DNA of 64,000 nt from an uncultured Desulfobacteraceae bacterium (GTDB lineage: Bacteria > Desulfobacterota > Desulfobacteria > Desulfobacterales > Desulfatirhabdiaceae), in contig CAJBLH010000013.1 in the NCBI GenBank assembly GCA_903953895.1, positions 38,064 to 102,063 on the forward strand. Reading direction: 5' to 3'. The notes beneath the pieces are model-generated. The model saw only the letters and a program-made list of their open reading frames with translations, searched no databases and was not told the DNA's origin. The first letter of the stretch is position 1; each line of letters opens with the position of its first letter. Of the stretch, positions 441 to 6,485 are shown in pieces. Position numbers and translations under genes: made by a program.

Positions 441-1319
441 TTAACTGTCTGAAAATGCAAACAATCTGACCTTAACAATGATCTTTCTGTCGATCGAACC
501 GGCAAGGGCCTGTTTCACATCTTTTTTGATGGTCTCACCCTGGGAAACGGATATTTCGGCCGGAACATAGAGTTCTGTTTCAAATTCCATGTACTGGCCC
601 AGTTCCCTGGCAAAAATATTTTTGATACCACTGACGGTTTCTACTGTCTTTAGCGCTTTTTTCGCATTATCCAGAATTTCTTCATCAGGCGCCTTATCCA
701 AAAGATTCAATGAGGATTCTTTGATGTATTCGATACAAATCTTTAGAATAATCACGCCGACAACAGCCGCCGCCAGCGGGTCCATAAAGTGAAATCCCAT
801 CTTTGCGCCGATAATTCCGATCAATACCGCGATGGAGGCATAGACATCCGACCGGGATTCCCATGCTTTGGCCACCATCGATGGACTGTTGATCTGAGTG
901 CCGGCACAGACGCTTTGGCGAAACATGAGTTCGTTGATTAAAATAGCAATAATGGCGCCCCAGGCTGCCGACCAGCAAATAACAACCTTTCGTCCCTGAA
1001 CGATGCTCAGGATGCCCTCATAAATAATGAAGGAAGCAATCGCCATCAAGAACAAATAGATAATAATCGATACGATATATTCTATCTTTCCATACCCATA
1101 GGGATAATCGTCATCCTCTTGGCGGTCGGAAAGCCTCAATCCGATAATCATGACAAGCGTCGCCAAAAGATCGGCGCAGGAATGAACGGCATCGGCAATC
1201 AATCCTCTACTTTGGCCCACCACGCCCATATAGCCTTTGATCAGGATCATCAGGATATTGCCTACCACATTGACGACACCAACACTATCGGCGCATTTTC
1301 GGCATGCTCGGTATTTCAT
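441..1319 (-). CDS. mamB: Magnetosome cation diffusion facilitator, MamB-like
   Basis: CDF fold with N-terminal MKYRACRKCADSV (CxxC like MamB MKFENCRDC), LIADAVHSCADLLA and AWESRSDVYAS metal-site segments, YPYGYGKIEYI; neighbours mamQ, mamA, mamI. Confidence 0.8.
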   Translation of the reverse strand: MKYRACRKCADSVGVVNVVGNILMILIKGYMGVVGQSRGLIADAVHSCADLLATLVMIIGLRLSDRQEDDDYPYGYGKIEYIVSIIIYLFLMAIASFIIYEGILSIVQGRKVVICWSAAWGAIIAILINELMFRQSVCAGTQINSPSMVAKAWESRSDVYASIAVLIGIIGAKMGFHFMDPLAAAVVGVIILKICIEYIKESSLNLLDKAPDEEILDNAKKALKTVETVSGIKNIFARELGQYMEFETELYVPAEISVSQGETIKKDVKQALAGSIDRKIIVKVRLFAFSDS

Positions 1320-1447
1320 TCTTCACCCATTAACGACCGCTCGGCCTTGATCTCTGCTTCCATTTTCGAAACCGCTTGCAGTAAAAAAAAGGCAAACACC
1401 ACCACTGCAATGATTAGCACAACTCCGACAATTTTAAGAATAAACAT
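1316..1447 (-). CDS. Small single-TM protein (43 aa), unknown function, overlapping mamB by 4 nt
   Basis: Manual reading: MFILKIVGVVLIIAVVVFAFFLLQAVSKMEAEIKAERSLMGEE*; ATGA overlap with the mamB start suggests translational coupling; too short for the supplied ORF track. Confidence 0.5.
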   Translation of the reverse strand: MFILKIVGVVLIIAVVVFAFFLLQAVSKMEAEIKAERSLMGEE

Positions 1448-1482: not shown

Positions 1483-1983
1483 CTAAATTACATAATGCCC
1501 CTTCAGCATCGCAAATATCATGACGAAAAAGAGGATTTGCTGCGTGTGCAAAAGGTAAAGGCCTTTTTTGACCTTGCCAGGGGGATATTTGATAAACATC
1601 AGAAATCCCCCGAAAGTAAGCCATCCCATGAGAACAAGGGCGACAATCAGCCAATTGTTTGACCACAAAGATACATAGCAGTGCGCACATGCAACCAGAA
1701 AGGAGGCCGTATTCAGCCAGACATGGTATATCAGCATCCTGTCGAAATAGGATTGAACATTTTTGAAATTGTATTTGATCCGAATTTGCTTGGCCGGGAA
1801 ATAGACATTTGCTGCAAGAAATAGCACCATGCACAGGTTGCCGGAGCCGGTAGCCAGGTTATAATCGGAAGTAACCGCATACACGGCTCCCAGCACCACA
1901 AGAATAGCGACGAATATCGCGCGCATTCTTACCGTTCCATGACCAAATAGAGATAAATTATAGGTGCTTGTGCTTATTTTCAC
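1483..1983 (-). CDS. Multi-TM membrane protein with paired histidines, possible heme-b (ferric-reductase/cyt b-like) protein
   Basis: 166 aa, several TM stretches; HVWLNTASFLVACAH and LLHTQQILFFVMIFAMLKGH place two His on each of two helices; sits inside the mam operon. Confidence 0.7.
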   Translation of the reverse strand: MKISTSTYNLSLFGHGTVRMRAIFVAILVVLGAVYAVTSDYNLATGSGNLCMVLFLAANVYFPAKQIRIKYNFKNVQSYFDRMLIYHVWLNTASFLVACAHCYVSLWSNNWLIVALVLMGWLTFGGFLMFIKYPPGKVKKGLYLLHTQQILFFVMIFAMLKGHYVI

Positions 1984-2039: not shown

Positions 2040-2945
2040 CTAATAATCAATCGGTTTAAACTGCGCGGCTTCACTGGTGGCCATATAGTAAGGCATAGGC
2101 GTAAAATTGAACATTTTCGCAAAAACATTGATCGGAAATTTGGTGATGATGGTCGTGTAGATGTTTACCATATCGTTGTATTTCAGTCTGGCAGTAGACA
2201 AATCCTTTTCTACATCGGTTATAGACGTCATCAGGGTCAGAAAGGGAGCTGACGATTTCAGGTCTGGATGATCTTCCGCCAATGCGAGCAAGCCTGAAAG
2301 CGGCTTCAGTTCGCTGATGAGCGTGTGCTTTGTTCCCGCAGGATATTCAGCCGTAATCCCTGTATTTTTTTTATGTTCGACCGCAGCGGAGGGTTCGGTT
2401 TTTACCGATGTCTGTGGTTTTGAATCCGCTGACCTGTCCTGAACCGGCCTTAGAGCCGCAGGATTGTCTGCATCGGCTTTCGCCTGCTGATCGTCGATCG
2501 GTGACAATTGCTGCTGGGTATGATCTCTAGTCATATCCGCTCGCATTTTAACGATGTTGGTCAACACCGTACTTTCATGGACCGTATAATGGTACACCGA
2601 CTTCGAAAGATTGACGGAAGTATCATGGCGCCGCTCCAACAAAGCGTTTACATTGCCCAATGCCGCCTGCACGTCATACTGAGCCGCAAGCATGAGGTTG
2701 AAATAATATGCAGAACCCACTGCCAGTAGAATAGCTGATGTAATCAGCGTGATACGGACCCAATGATTTTTGGTGAAAGCCACAAAGGGTTTCCATACGG
2801 TAAGATAAAATCGGTGCCTTGAAACCAGCTCATGCCGATCCTGTTCATACCGGTCTGATTCATACTGATCCTGTTCATATTGATCCAGACCATATATTCT
2901 GCCGTAAGCACTTTGAATGATATTCGAAATATTTCTATTCATCAT
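2040..2945 (-). CDS. mamQ: MamQ, LemA-family magnetosome protein
   Basis: One TM then LemA-like helical domain: YYFNLMLAAQYDVQAALGNVNALLERRHDTSVNLSKSV... TARLKYNDMVNIYTTIITKFPINVFAKMFNF. Confidence 0.85.
   Translation of the reverse strand: MMNRNISNIIQSAYGRIYGLDQYEQDQYESDRYEQDRHELVSRHRFYLTVWKPFVAFTKNHWVRITLITSAILLAVGSAYYFNLMLAAQYDVQAALGNVNALLERRHDTSVNLSKSVYHYTVHESTVLTNIVKMRADMTRDHTQQQLSPIDDQQAKADADNPAALRPVQDRSADSKPQTSVKTEPSAAVEHKKNTGITAEYPAGTKHTLISELKPLSGLLALAEDHPDLKSSAPFLTLMTSITDVEKDLSTARLKYNDMVNIYTTIITKFPINVFAKMFNFTPMPYYMATSEAAQFKPIDY
2826..2885 (-). repeat. 15-bp coding tandem repeat x4 in the mamQ N-terminus (DQYEQ/DQYES/DRYEQ/DRHEL)
   Basis: Seen directly: (ga[tc]c[ag][ag][tc]atga[ag]..) pentapeptide units in frame. 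Confidence 0.8.
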
Positions 2946-2973: not shown

Positions 2974-3330
2974 TCAGGTCAATTCCTTAATTCCATGGAT
3001 CAAAGAAGCCGCCCCTGCACCGATTAAGAGAATGGGAAGGAAACCGTTAAAAAAATCGAGAGTGGCGTAGTATTCATCTCCGCCGGCAAAAAGTCCATAT
3101 AATCCGATCAGGAGAAATATGCCGGCCAAAATTGAATTCACCACTCTGTACTCTTTTTTGGCAAAAATGGCTGCTGCCAATAGGGCGAGGCCGATTAAAA
3201 TAAAAATCGGTTGCACAACCCCTTTAATCAAAGTAACCACCAGCACGCTGTTCATATAAACAAAAAACAAACCTACGCTGAAAATGCTCAGTCCCGCGAT
3301 AATGTGTCCTTTTCTCATTGAGATTCTCAT
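2974..3330 (-). CDS. Tandem MamI-like four-TM membrane protein
   Basis: ORF 2974..3372; start probably MRISMRKGH at 3330 since the upstream gene ends at 3350. Two halves both resemble MamI (see findings). Confidence 0.7.
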   Translation of the reverse strand: MRISMRKGHIIAGLSIFSVGLFFVYMNSVLVVTLIKGVVQPIFILIGLALLAAAIFAKKEYRVVNSILAGIFLLIGLYGLFAGGDEYYATLDFFNGFLPILLIGAGAASLIHGIKELT

Positions 3331-3349: not shown

Positions 3350-4327
3350 TCATTGCGGCGCCCCATTATCAATCCATTCGATGATCAAATGGCTGTCCGG
3401 GCCGGCAAATCGATGCATGGGGCCGCCGATACTCACCAGCGACTTTAAAAGTCCGTTGTCCACGTAAACCTTGACATTGTCATAAGTCGTCAGATTCCGG
3501 AATGGGCCGGAATGGCATCGTAGACAGTCCTTCGCCAAAACTTGTCGGATGCCGTTATTATAAGTGATTGTACCCTGCTGCCCCTGCATTCCCATCGCGC
3601 CCTGCGGCTGGCCCGGCGGGCAGTTGGCACCCGATCGAAAAAAAACACGGATTGTGGGAGATTTTTCCGGCGCTCCGTTTTGGGCCCATGTCACGATCGT
3701 CTGAGCGTCATTTCCGGCAAACTGACTCATGGGGCCCTGTACCATGGTTGCCAGCAGCCCGGTATCCGCGTACATTTTCAAACTGTCATAGTCCATCAGA
3801 TTGCGACTTGGGCCCGAATGGCATTGTGCGCAATCATTGCTGATAATATTCTTGATCGTCGGTTCGTAGAAGACCGCCTTGGCTGCTGCAGGTATCATGT
3901 TTTGGTTTTTCAATGCCGCGGCCTGCATGGAAGCGGATTTTTCAGGCGCTCCGTTCTGAGCCCATGTCACGATCGTTTGTGCGTCATTTCCGGCAAACCG
4001 TCGCATGGGCCCCTGGACCATGCTTGCCAGCAATCCGGAATCCGCATATATTTTCAGACTGTCATAGTCCATCAGATTTCGATTCACCCCGGAATGACAT
4101 CGCGCACAATCGTTGCTGATTATATTCTTGATCGTCGGTTCATAATAGACAGCAGTGACGTTTACCTGTATCGCGCCCTGATTATTCGGCGGTATATTCG
4201 ACCCGGAAGGGATCTTCACATCTAAATTTCCCGCAGCATGCCCAAAAAAATGTTCCCCATCGTCGCAATAAAACAATAAAAAAAATGTTCCAAGGAGCAG
4301 AATCAGCGATTTATATACTGACTTCAT
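3350..4327 (-). CDS. Exported cytochrome c with three tandem CxxCH domains
   Basis: N-terminal hydrophobic signal; CARCHSG, CAQCHSG, CLRCHSG each followed by NLMDYDSLK..YAD.GLL..MVQGPM..FAGNDAQTIVTWAQNGAPE-type sequence. Confidence 0.85.
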   Translation of the reverse strand: MKSVYKSLILLLGTFFLLFYCDDGEHFFGHAAGNLDVKIPSGSNIPPNNQGAIQVNVTAVYYEPTIKNIISNDCARCHSGVNRNLMDYDSLKIYADSGLLASMVQGPMRRFAGNDAQTIVTWAQNGAPEKSASMQAAALKNQNMIPAAAKAVFYEPTIKNIISNDCAQCHSGPSRNLMDYDSLKMYADTGLLATMVQGPMSQFAGNDAQTIVTWAQNGAPEKSPTIRVFFRSGANCPPGQPQGAMGMQGQQGTITYNNGIRQVLAKDCLRCHSGPFRNLTTYDNVKVYVDNGLLKSLVSIGGPMHRFAGPDSHLIIEWIDNGAPQ

Positions 4328-4366: not shown

Positions 4367-5131
4367 CTAATAATTGTCTTCATCGAGTTCGCGCTCTAAT
4401 TCCATCACCTTGGTAAAATGCTTGGCAGCAGCTTTATGATCGTCCTTACGCACGTTTAAAAAACCCAGATGTTGATGATATTTGATTTCCGTGGGATTGA
4501 GTTCTATGGCTTTTTTAACGGCTTCAATGGCTTTGTCGATTTCTCCCAACCCATCATAGGCAATCCCGATCAGATAATATACCTTGGGGTTGTCCGGTGT
4601 CTTTTCAGAAACCTTCTCCAATCCTTCTATGGCAGCCTGGTAATCCTTCAGCTTTAGGTGAAGGGAACTTTTTCGATACAGGGCGCCTTTATGCGTCGGG
4701 CTTAAAATCAAGACCTTTTTAAAAGCTTTGATGGCGCTATTGGTCTCACCGGCAGCACTCAGCGCCATTCCCAACTGATATTGAGCATCCGCGTCGGATG
4801 GGTCCAGCCGGGTCCATTCCTTGAGATAGCTCAAGGCTTTTTCTTGCAACCCCTTTTTGGTGTAATGGGTGCTGATATTACGGTAAATCATTGCCTTGTC
4901 TTTTGGGGTCAACGCAAAAAGGGAGTTGTAGGCATCCAGCGTCTTGTTTAAAACACGACCGCAAAAAAGAAGAAAGGCATGCGTATAAAAAGTGGCTGAA
5001 GGCCCAATGCGCTCCGCTCCAGAATGACTGGCCTGGGCTTTGTCCTTTTTTGTCTTGCCTGGCTTTTTGGGAACATCATTTTCTTCTATTTCCTGAACTT
5101 CTTCGTCGTCCTTAAAATCATCATTCATCAT
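4367..5131 (-). CDS. mamA: MamA, TPR magnetosome-associated protein
   Basis: ATFYTHAFLLFCGRVLNKTLDAYNSLF matches the MamA N-terminal region (LYTHYGLSVAKKLG..MVDAFRSAF) followed by TPRs; ORF opens at 5167, likely start MMNDDF 5131/5128. Confidence 0.85.
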   Translation of the reverse strand: MMNDDFKDDEEVQEIEENDVPKKPGKTKKDKAQASHSGAERIGPSATFYTHAFLLFCGRVLNKTLDAYNSLFALTPKDKAMIYRNISTHYTKKGLQEKALSYLKEWTRLDPSDADAQYQLGMALSAAGETNSAIKAFKKVLILSPTHKGALYRKSSLHLKLKDYQAAIEGLEKVSEKTPDNPKVYYLIGIAYDGLGEIDKAIEAVKKAIELNPTEIKYHQHLGFLNVRKDDHKAAAKHFTKVMELERELDEDNY

Positions 5132-5312
5132 TTTCCGATGCCTCCTCCTTTGTTTTTGGCGGTACAAAACCTGCCAATGTAGCTAACAGGCCTATTAACA
5201 TCATACAAATCGGAAGTCCTCCCTTGACGATATCGGCCACATAATAATATTCGTCATAAATTCCCCAGATTCCCAAAGCAAGAAAAAACAAACCTAGAAT
5301 AATATGCAGCAT
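5121..5312 (-). CDS. mamI: MamI, small two-TM magnetosome protein
   Basis: MLHIILGLFFLALGIWGIYDEYYYVADIVKGGLPICMMLIGLLATLAGFV, matches MamI size and pattern; first gene of the mam operon. Confidence 0.8.
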   Translation of the reverse strand: MLHIILGLFFLALGIWGIYDEYYYVADIVKGGLPICMMLIGLLATLAGFVPPKTKEEASENDE

Positions 5313-6107: not shown

Positions 6108-6348
6108 GCCGATGGATGCATTTTCATGGTAAACGCTCATGGCATCGGTGCAATGCCACCCCCAGAGATGAAAATGGGATATTTTTACCCTCACCCCGGC
6201 CCTCTCCCAGAGGGAGAGAATGAATGTATTTTCACGGTAAAATAAAAATGGCGAAGAAAATGAGCAAAAAGTAAGCACTAAATCATAAACGAAAAAAAAC
6301 AATGCTAAAAAGTCACCATTCTGCGCTTACTCCACCGCATAACGCGCT

Positions 6349-6458
6349 GGATTGACTTCGGATTGACTTCGGATTGACTTCGGATTGACTTCGGATTGAC
6401 TTCGGATTGACTTCGGATTGACTTCGGATTGACTTCGGATTGACTTCGGATTGACTTC
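6349..6458. repeat. Perfect 11-bp tandem repeat, 10 copies of ggattgacttc
   Basis: Counted directly; uninterrupted. Confidence 0.97.
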
Positions 6459-6485
6459 GGATTTAGTCAATGAATACAACATATT

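Follow-up and report, generated by a model that had tools for sequence, protein, structure and literature searches.

The mamI-2 locus

The window analysed here is a stretch of 64,000 nucleotides from an uncultured Desulfobacteraceae bacterium. It holds on one strand, in this order, mamI-1, mamA, mad1, mamI-2, mamQ, mad2, mamB and a gene for a mamP-like magnetochrome protein, the last of which extends beyond the window edge (Table 1). The start of mamA and the end of mamI-1 overlap by 11 nt, and the product of mad2 has no family match in NCBIfam or Pfam. The gene of interest encodes the membrane protein MRKGHIIAGLSIFSVGLFFVYMNSVLVVTLIKGVVQPIFILIGLALLAAAIFAKKEYRVVNSILAGIFLLIGLYGLFAGGDEYYATLDFFNGFLPILLIGAGAASLIHGIKELT (translation of the window ORF). 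It lies between mad1 and mamQ in the same direction as both, with mamI-1 and mamA upstream, and the two genes that separate it from mamI-1 are mamA and mad1, in agreement with the spacing of two genes given in a preliminary description of the locus. Because of this gene order, we identify the gene as mamI-2. The name and the matching order from mamI-1 to mamB have been published for Desulfovibrio sp. FSS-1 (NNJEOMEG_00109; PMC7951924) and for MMP XL-1 (XL1_145_00040; PMC9145555), and the same position is taken in RS-1 by DMR_41140, described as a possibly redundant homologue of mamI (PMC4287615). The novelty implied in the preliminary description is reduced accordingly, the gene being a known one found in many Desulfobacterota clusters.

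A minus-strand gene was previously placed at 2974-3330. The gene is present, but its start is at 3318: the in-frame upstream ATG at 3330 is not conserved, and all orthologues use the ATG equivalent to 3318. A chance ORF was considered and rejected, and so was a pseudogene, given the conservation in 21 genomes and a dN/dS of 0.11 between two species of the genus, which is similar in the two halves and shows purifying selection. Between the same two species, synonymous divergence is far lower for mamI-1 (pS 0.12; window 5121-5312 against L062:2033-2224) than for mamI-2 (pS 0.44).

Table 1. Features of the magnetosome gene cluster in the window
Feature	Position	Strand	Description and basis
mamI-2	2974..3318	-	114 aa, two MamI hairpins; translation, NCBIfam MamI matched twice, orthologues with same start
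N-terminal MamI hairpin	3166..3306	-	residues 5-51, HIIAGLS...AAAI; hhalign against MamI-1
Lys32-Gly33, loop 1	3220..3225	-	conserved; column counts
Linker FAKKEYRVV	3139..3165	-	residues 52-60, basic, predicted cytoplasmic; sequence and positive-inside rule
C-terminal MamI hairpin	2989..3138	-	residues 61-110; hhalign against MamI-1
DEYY motif, loop 2	3067..3078	-	residues 81-84, common to MamI-1, absent in N-half; column counts
AGG insertion before DEYY	3079..3087	-	three residues, in the window's genus and one Desulfovibrionaceae genome (G920); alignment
mamI-1	5121..5312	-	63 aa, single hairpin; NCBIfam MamI 83.6 bits, above cut-off 80
mamA (TPR)	4367..5131	-	NCBIfam MamA E 1.1e-81
mad1	3350..4327	-	three CXXCH motifs; location and published three-haem description agree with RS-1 and FSS-1
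mamQ (LemA family)	2040..2945	-	NCBIfam MamQ E 1e-22 (below cut-off); Pfam LemA E 2.9e-30
mad2 (membrane protein)	1483..1983	-	assigned from its place after mamQ and before mamB in the published order (PMC7951924)
mamB (CDF transporter)	441..1319	-	NCBIfam MamB E 7.2e-72, best CDF model, below curated cut-off

Three minor observations concern the cluster itself. Between mad2 and mamB there is a single-TM ORF of 43 aa, MFILKIVGVVLIIAVVVFAFFLLQAVSKMEAEIKAERSLMGEE (1316-1447, minus strand), to which ORFs of 43-58 aa correspond at the equivalent place in L059, L060, L062 and L066, and it is probably an unannotated small gene of the magnetosome cluster. At about 6346-6465, a short way upstream of the cluster's mamI-1 end, there are about ten tandem copies of an 11-12-bp unit, GGATTGACTTC. 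A mamI-3, listed for RS-1, FSS-1 and XL-1, was not found in the window's own genome by tblastn with its own MamI and a further genome search; it may have been lost or be too diverged for the searches used.

Two MamI-like hairpins in MamI-2

The analysis confirms the claim of the preliminary description: MamI-2 is a tandem of two MamI-like membrane hairpins. The two half-sequences given there are exact by translation. The NCBIfam MamI equivalog model NF040963 has two partial matches in the protein (E 1.7e-8, 34.2 bits), showing homologous hairpin domains, but MamI-2 is not a single hairpin scoring above 80 bits and stays below the curated cut-off (34 against 80 bits). When the genome is searched by tblastn with its own MamI, it returns MamI itself and exactly the two halves of MamI-2, nothing else. 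The comparison of each half with MamI by hhalign, set as the check beforehand, was made with profiles of 18 MamI-2 and 12 MamI-1 sequences. Both halves match MamI-1 significantly, the N-half with 95.5% probability (E 1.5e-8) and the C-half with 99.1% (E 1.8e-18), and the N-half matches the C-half with 86.6% (E 4.5e-6). As a null, profile columns were shuffled within TM and loop blocks only, thereby keeping the hydrophobic layout, in 300 trials per comparison. None of the 300 reaches the observed score, which is 41.6 against a maximum of 26 for the N-half with MamI-1, 86 against 32 for the C-half with MamI-1, and 30 against 25 for the two halves. Reversed profiles, as an hhalign control, give no significance. 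In a hairpin-only repeat with more sequences and with comparisons of real families, the order is unchanged; the two halves match more weakly there (56%), yet above all 100 shuffles. In addition, the gapless in-register BLOSUM score is unique among the 29 offsets compared, far above the 28 others, and a MamI-1 HMM run on 4740 ORFs picks out not a single unrelated membrane protein: its matches are limited to MamI-1, the two halves of MamI-2, always in one register, and further MamI-like hairpins.

The direct resemblance of the two halves is weak (21% identity, hhalign 56-87%), and so is that of the window's N-half alone to MamI (15/47 identical, domain E 0.009). The latter, with the richness of both N-half and MamI in Gly and Leu, would suit a first half that is an unrelated hydrophobic hairpin, only the second half being MamI and the repeat an artefact of composition; this is hardly credible, however, in view of the composition-keeping shuffles (0/300; observed score 42, highest null score 26), the non-significant reversed profile, the unique register, and the His and Lys-Gly that are invariant in the N-half and common to MamI-1.

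Residues were counted in a common register of 47 columns for 22 MamI-2 and 16 MamI-1. All 22 N-halves carry His at column 1 and Lys-Gly at columns 28-29, and no DEYY residue is in register there (DEYY Asp in 0/22). The C-half has Asp-Glu in 22/22, next Tyr (one Trp) and then a downstream Asp-Phe in the loop, with Lys in 0/22 and Asn, Tyr, Ser, Val or Ile in its place. Both sets are present in MamI-1, where the DEYY Asp occurs in 16/16, Glu in 14/16, and Lys in 15/16 with one Arg. The partition is clean: His and Lys-Gly are kept in the N-half, DE(Y/W) and the loop Asp in the C-half. It may represent a division of labour between the halves. The patterns that had been proposed as shared need correction in this light. 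G-x-x-x-DEYY is seen in the second half, but the first half lacks DEYY and has H-I-I, G-L and K-G, while in G-x-x-P-I the Pro of the N-half is displaced by one residue, as Q-P. Compared with the single-hairpin MamI of NF040963, the hairpin register and HII/GL are common to both, with KG found in the N-half of MamI-2 and DEYY and D in its C-half. MamI is one hairpin of about 60-77 aa (77 aa in MSR-1) and, unlike MamI-2, carries both loop signatures in one loop.

Occurrence and origin of the double form

We then present an overall view of MamI-2, surveyed by protein and profile searches in about 1100 genomes, with Nitrospirota, Omnitrophota and Alphaproteobacteria outside the survey. Orthologues in other magnetosome clusters, for which the preliminary description advised to look, are indeed found: 21 genomes in 9 families have 22 full-length copies, with both hairpins in every copy. 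They are about 110 aa long and start with MRxxH, and the window MamI-2 is 52-87% identical over the full length to other MamI-2. Wherever the contig extends far enough, a MamI-1 gene lies about 2 kb from MamI-2; the exceptions are G669 and G920, in which the two are on separate contigs. In contrast to the copies of FSS-1, XL-1 and RS-1, the window copy has the AGG insertion before DEYY. The same three-residue insertion in loop 2 (window 3079-3087), which yields FAGGDEY, is present in L127 of the Desulfovibrionaceae genome G920, by parallel gain or transfer. A C-half-only MamI-2 in G087 (contig C28, L061:5985-6152) was set aside because mamQ, mad2 and mamB are missing from its cluster and the mamI-1 frame is broken; decay or misassembly is probable.

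G1016, a genome of 5.3 Mb in three contigs, encodes at 4650431-4650763 a full two-hairpin protein, MRFGHLLSGLAVFGLGLFFTYYYSPLVVGVFKGSLQPIMIIIGMLALLSVVFDKTRYKKINLLVAVVMLAVGGYGWYDEYIATMDFLYGVLPIALVLFGVISVAHGVRTLK, which aligns with other MamI-2. This match lies between the published positions of RS-1 mutations in mamQ (4649752-4650091) and mad1 (4650957) (PMC4287615) and therefore corresponds to the RS-1 slot DMR_41140. With G1016 identified as RS-1 by those coordinates, the DMR_41140 protein of D. magneticus RS-1 is also double. The papers on the FSS-1, XL-1 and RS-1 genes say MamI homologue only and were not found to mention two hairpins; nor was any statement of MamI-2 as two MamI units found in the literature searched, which was without the key 2013 comparative paper. 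Within that literature, as far as searched, the doubling and the residue partition between the halves are new, and the doubling corrects the view of MamI-2 as just another redundant mamI copy.

The greigite-type-like clusters (G433, G713, G651 and G437) have only single-hairpin MamI-4 and MamI-5, without DEYY; thus the double form is a feature of the magnetite-type cluster, as far as the genomes seen show. Both are also of the MamI family (hhalign 97.6-97.9% against MamI-1) but, unlike MamI-2, have a W-rich loop, and MamI-5 adjoins a MamO-like protease.

In a hairpin tree of 72 rows and 47 columns, the N-halves form one clade (100/99) and the C-halves another (97/100). Since each half is its own clade, the doubling arose a single time, before the clusters of Desulfobacterales and Desulfovibrionaceae parted, be it through descent or cluster transfer, the taxon names being derived from the RS-1 match and published clusters. 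Duplication and fusion had been suggested as the origin; the two-unit architecture stands, and none of the tested tree groupings is rejected with 47 columns. That two MamI paralogues evolved apart and then fused, instead of one hairpin being duplicated internally in tandem, has a chance only a little below even, and would leave protein and function unchanged. Each half is closer to MamI-1 (mean identity 32% for the N-half and 39% for the C-half) than the halves are to each other (21%), the free tree joins C with MamI-1 with support of only 38/78, and raw material for fusion was present because such clusters contain more than one mamI gene, indeed several. However, complementary residue loss alone would drive the halves apart faster than from MamI-1, and in constrained trees N+C as one clade (p-AU 0.40) is retained as well as N+MamI-1 (p-AU 0.48).

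Proposed role of MamI-2 and MamI relatives elsewhere

Based on the tandem homology, conservation, operon context, residue partition and purifying selection, we consider it fairly likely that MamI-2 is a four-helix covalent MamI pseudo-dimer, which would sit beside MamI-1, MamQ and MamB in the magnetosome membrane at an early stage and help to shape or stabilise the invagination. The topology, the dimer-like packing and the membrane-forming role are predictions. Four TM helices are expected, with the termini and linker probably in the cytoplasm and both loops facing the magnetosome lumen, because the N-terminus (RK), the linker (KKEYR) and the C-terminus are basic and loop 2 is acidic (positive-inside rule). 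Duplication of a unit whose helix number is even causes no inversion, and both hairpins would therefore be oriented alike, as two MamI monomers would be. MamI-2 could thereby serve as a linked MamI pair in early membrane assembly, with MamI-1 either as its partner or acting in parallel to it. The two hairpins would be specialised, the N-hairpin having kept MamI's His and loop Lys-Gly and the C-hairpin the loop Asp together with DEYY. No relative of MamI-2 with a solved structure turned up in a profile search. Single-sequence AlphaFold models of two window proteins are of low confidence (pTM 0.54 and 0.30); one such model has a continuous helix of 50 residues and is too poor to display hairpins, and a search of the PDB for similar folds with these low-confidence models yielded nothing below E 2.

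MamI is predicted to span the membrane with two TM helices, and AMB-1 requires it for invagination (PMC3905215, PMC9512821). It is dispensable for vesicles in MSR-1 (PMC4902198), so the membrane-shaping role is not general. The screen in RS-1 reported no mamI mutant, and possible redundancy was offered as the reason (PMC4287615). A bolder proposal, which we hold only tentatively and think doubtful, is that MamI is dimeric in the magnetosome membrane and that MamI-2 is a locked asymmetric dimer, used by Desulfobacterota magnetite-type clusters beside MamI-1. Its lobes would jointly carry the full MamI signature, one giving His and Lys-Gly and the other the DEYY/Asp loop.

Alternatively, the old MamI scaffold may have taken a new task in place of membrane shaping, as membrane partner of neighbouring electron-transfer or transport proteins (the Mad1 cytochrome, Mad2 or MamB). 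The gene has mad1 on one side and mamQ on the other in those magnetite-type clusters whose flanks were read, mutation of mad1 or mad2 in RS-1 impairs crystals and not vesicles (PMC4287615), and the MamI-2 loop residues are unlike those of MamI-1. We regard this as rather unlikely, since the MamI-1 loop is almost intact in the C-half, and greigite-type clusters carry separate MamI paralogues at other positions. As for the pseudo-dimer, few proteins have been linked to the formation of a bacterial organelle membrane, MamI among them, and a tandem MamI with split residues offers a sequence-based argument for the hairpin acting in pairs and assigns residues to sides. The residue partition is the part that a specialist may find worth testing.

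MamI may also have relatives beyond the magnetosome clusters, against a published statement (PMC3905215). A two-TM protein of 93 aa (MKTLIGGAVAAVLGLIGVSIWF...GVLPIMLLLGGGLALYLGF) adjoins purF on contig C22 of the window's own genome (L015:1399-1680, minus strand). It matches the MamI model with E 8.8e-9, below the cut-off, and MamI-1 by hhalign with 81%, where 1 of 100 shuffles is equally good. The protein (equivalents L006-L013 and L021) is present in all 10 family genomes searched, most of them without a MamI-1 or MamI-2 match. In addition, proteins of about 190-200 aa with a MamI-like N-terminal hairpin are found in f139 g319 genomes (L082:1498-2061, plus strand, and L083-L087), their genes lying outside any mam cluster seen. 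They match the NCBIfam MamI model with E 1.7e-10 (below cut-off) and MamI-1 by hhalign with 92% (0/100 shuffles), and their C-terminal Cys motif resembles the Ada metal-binding domain, just under the cut-off.
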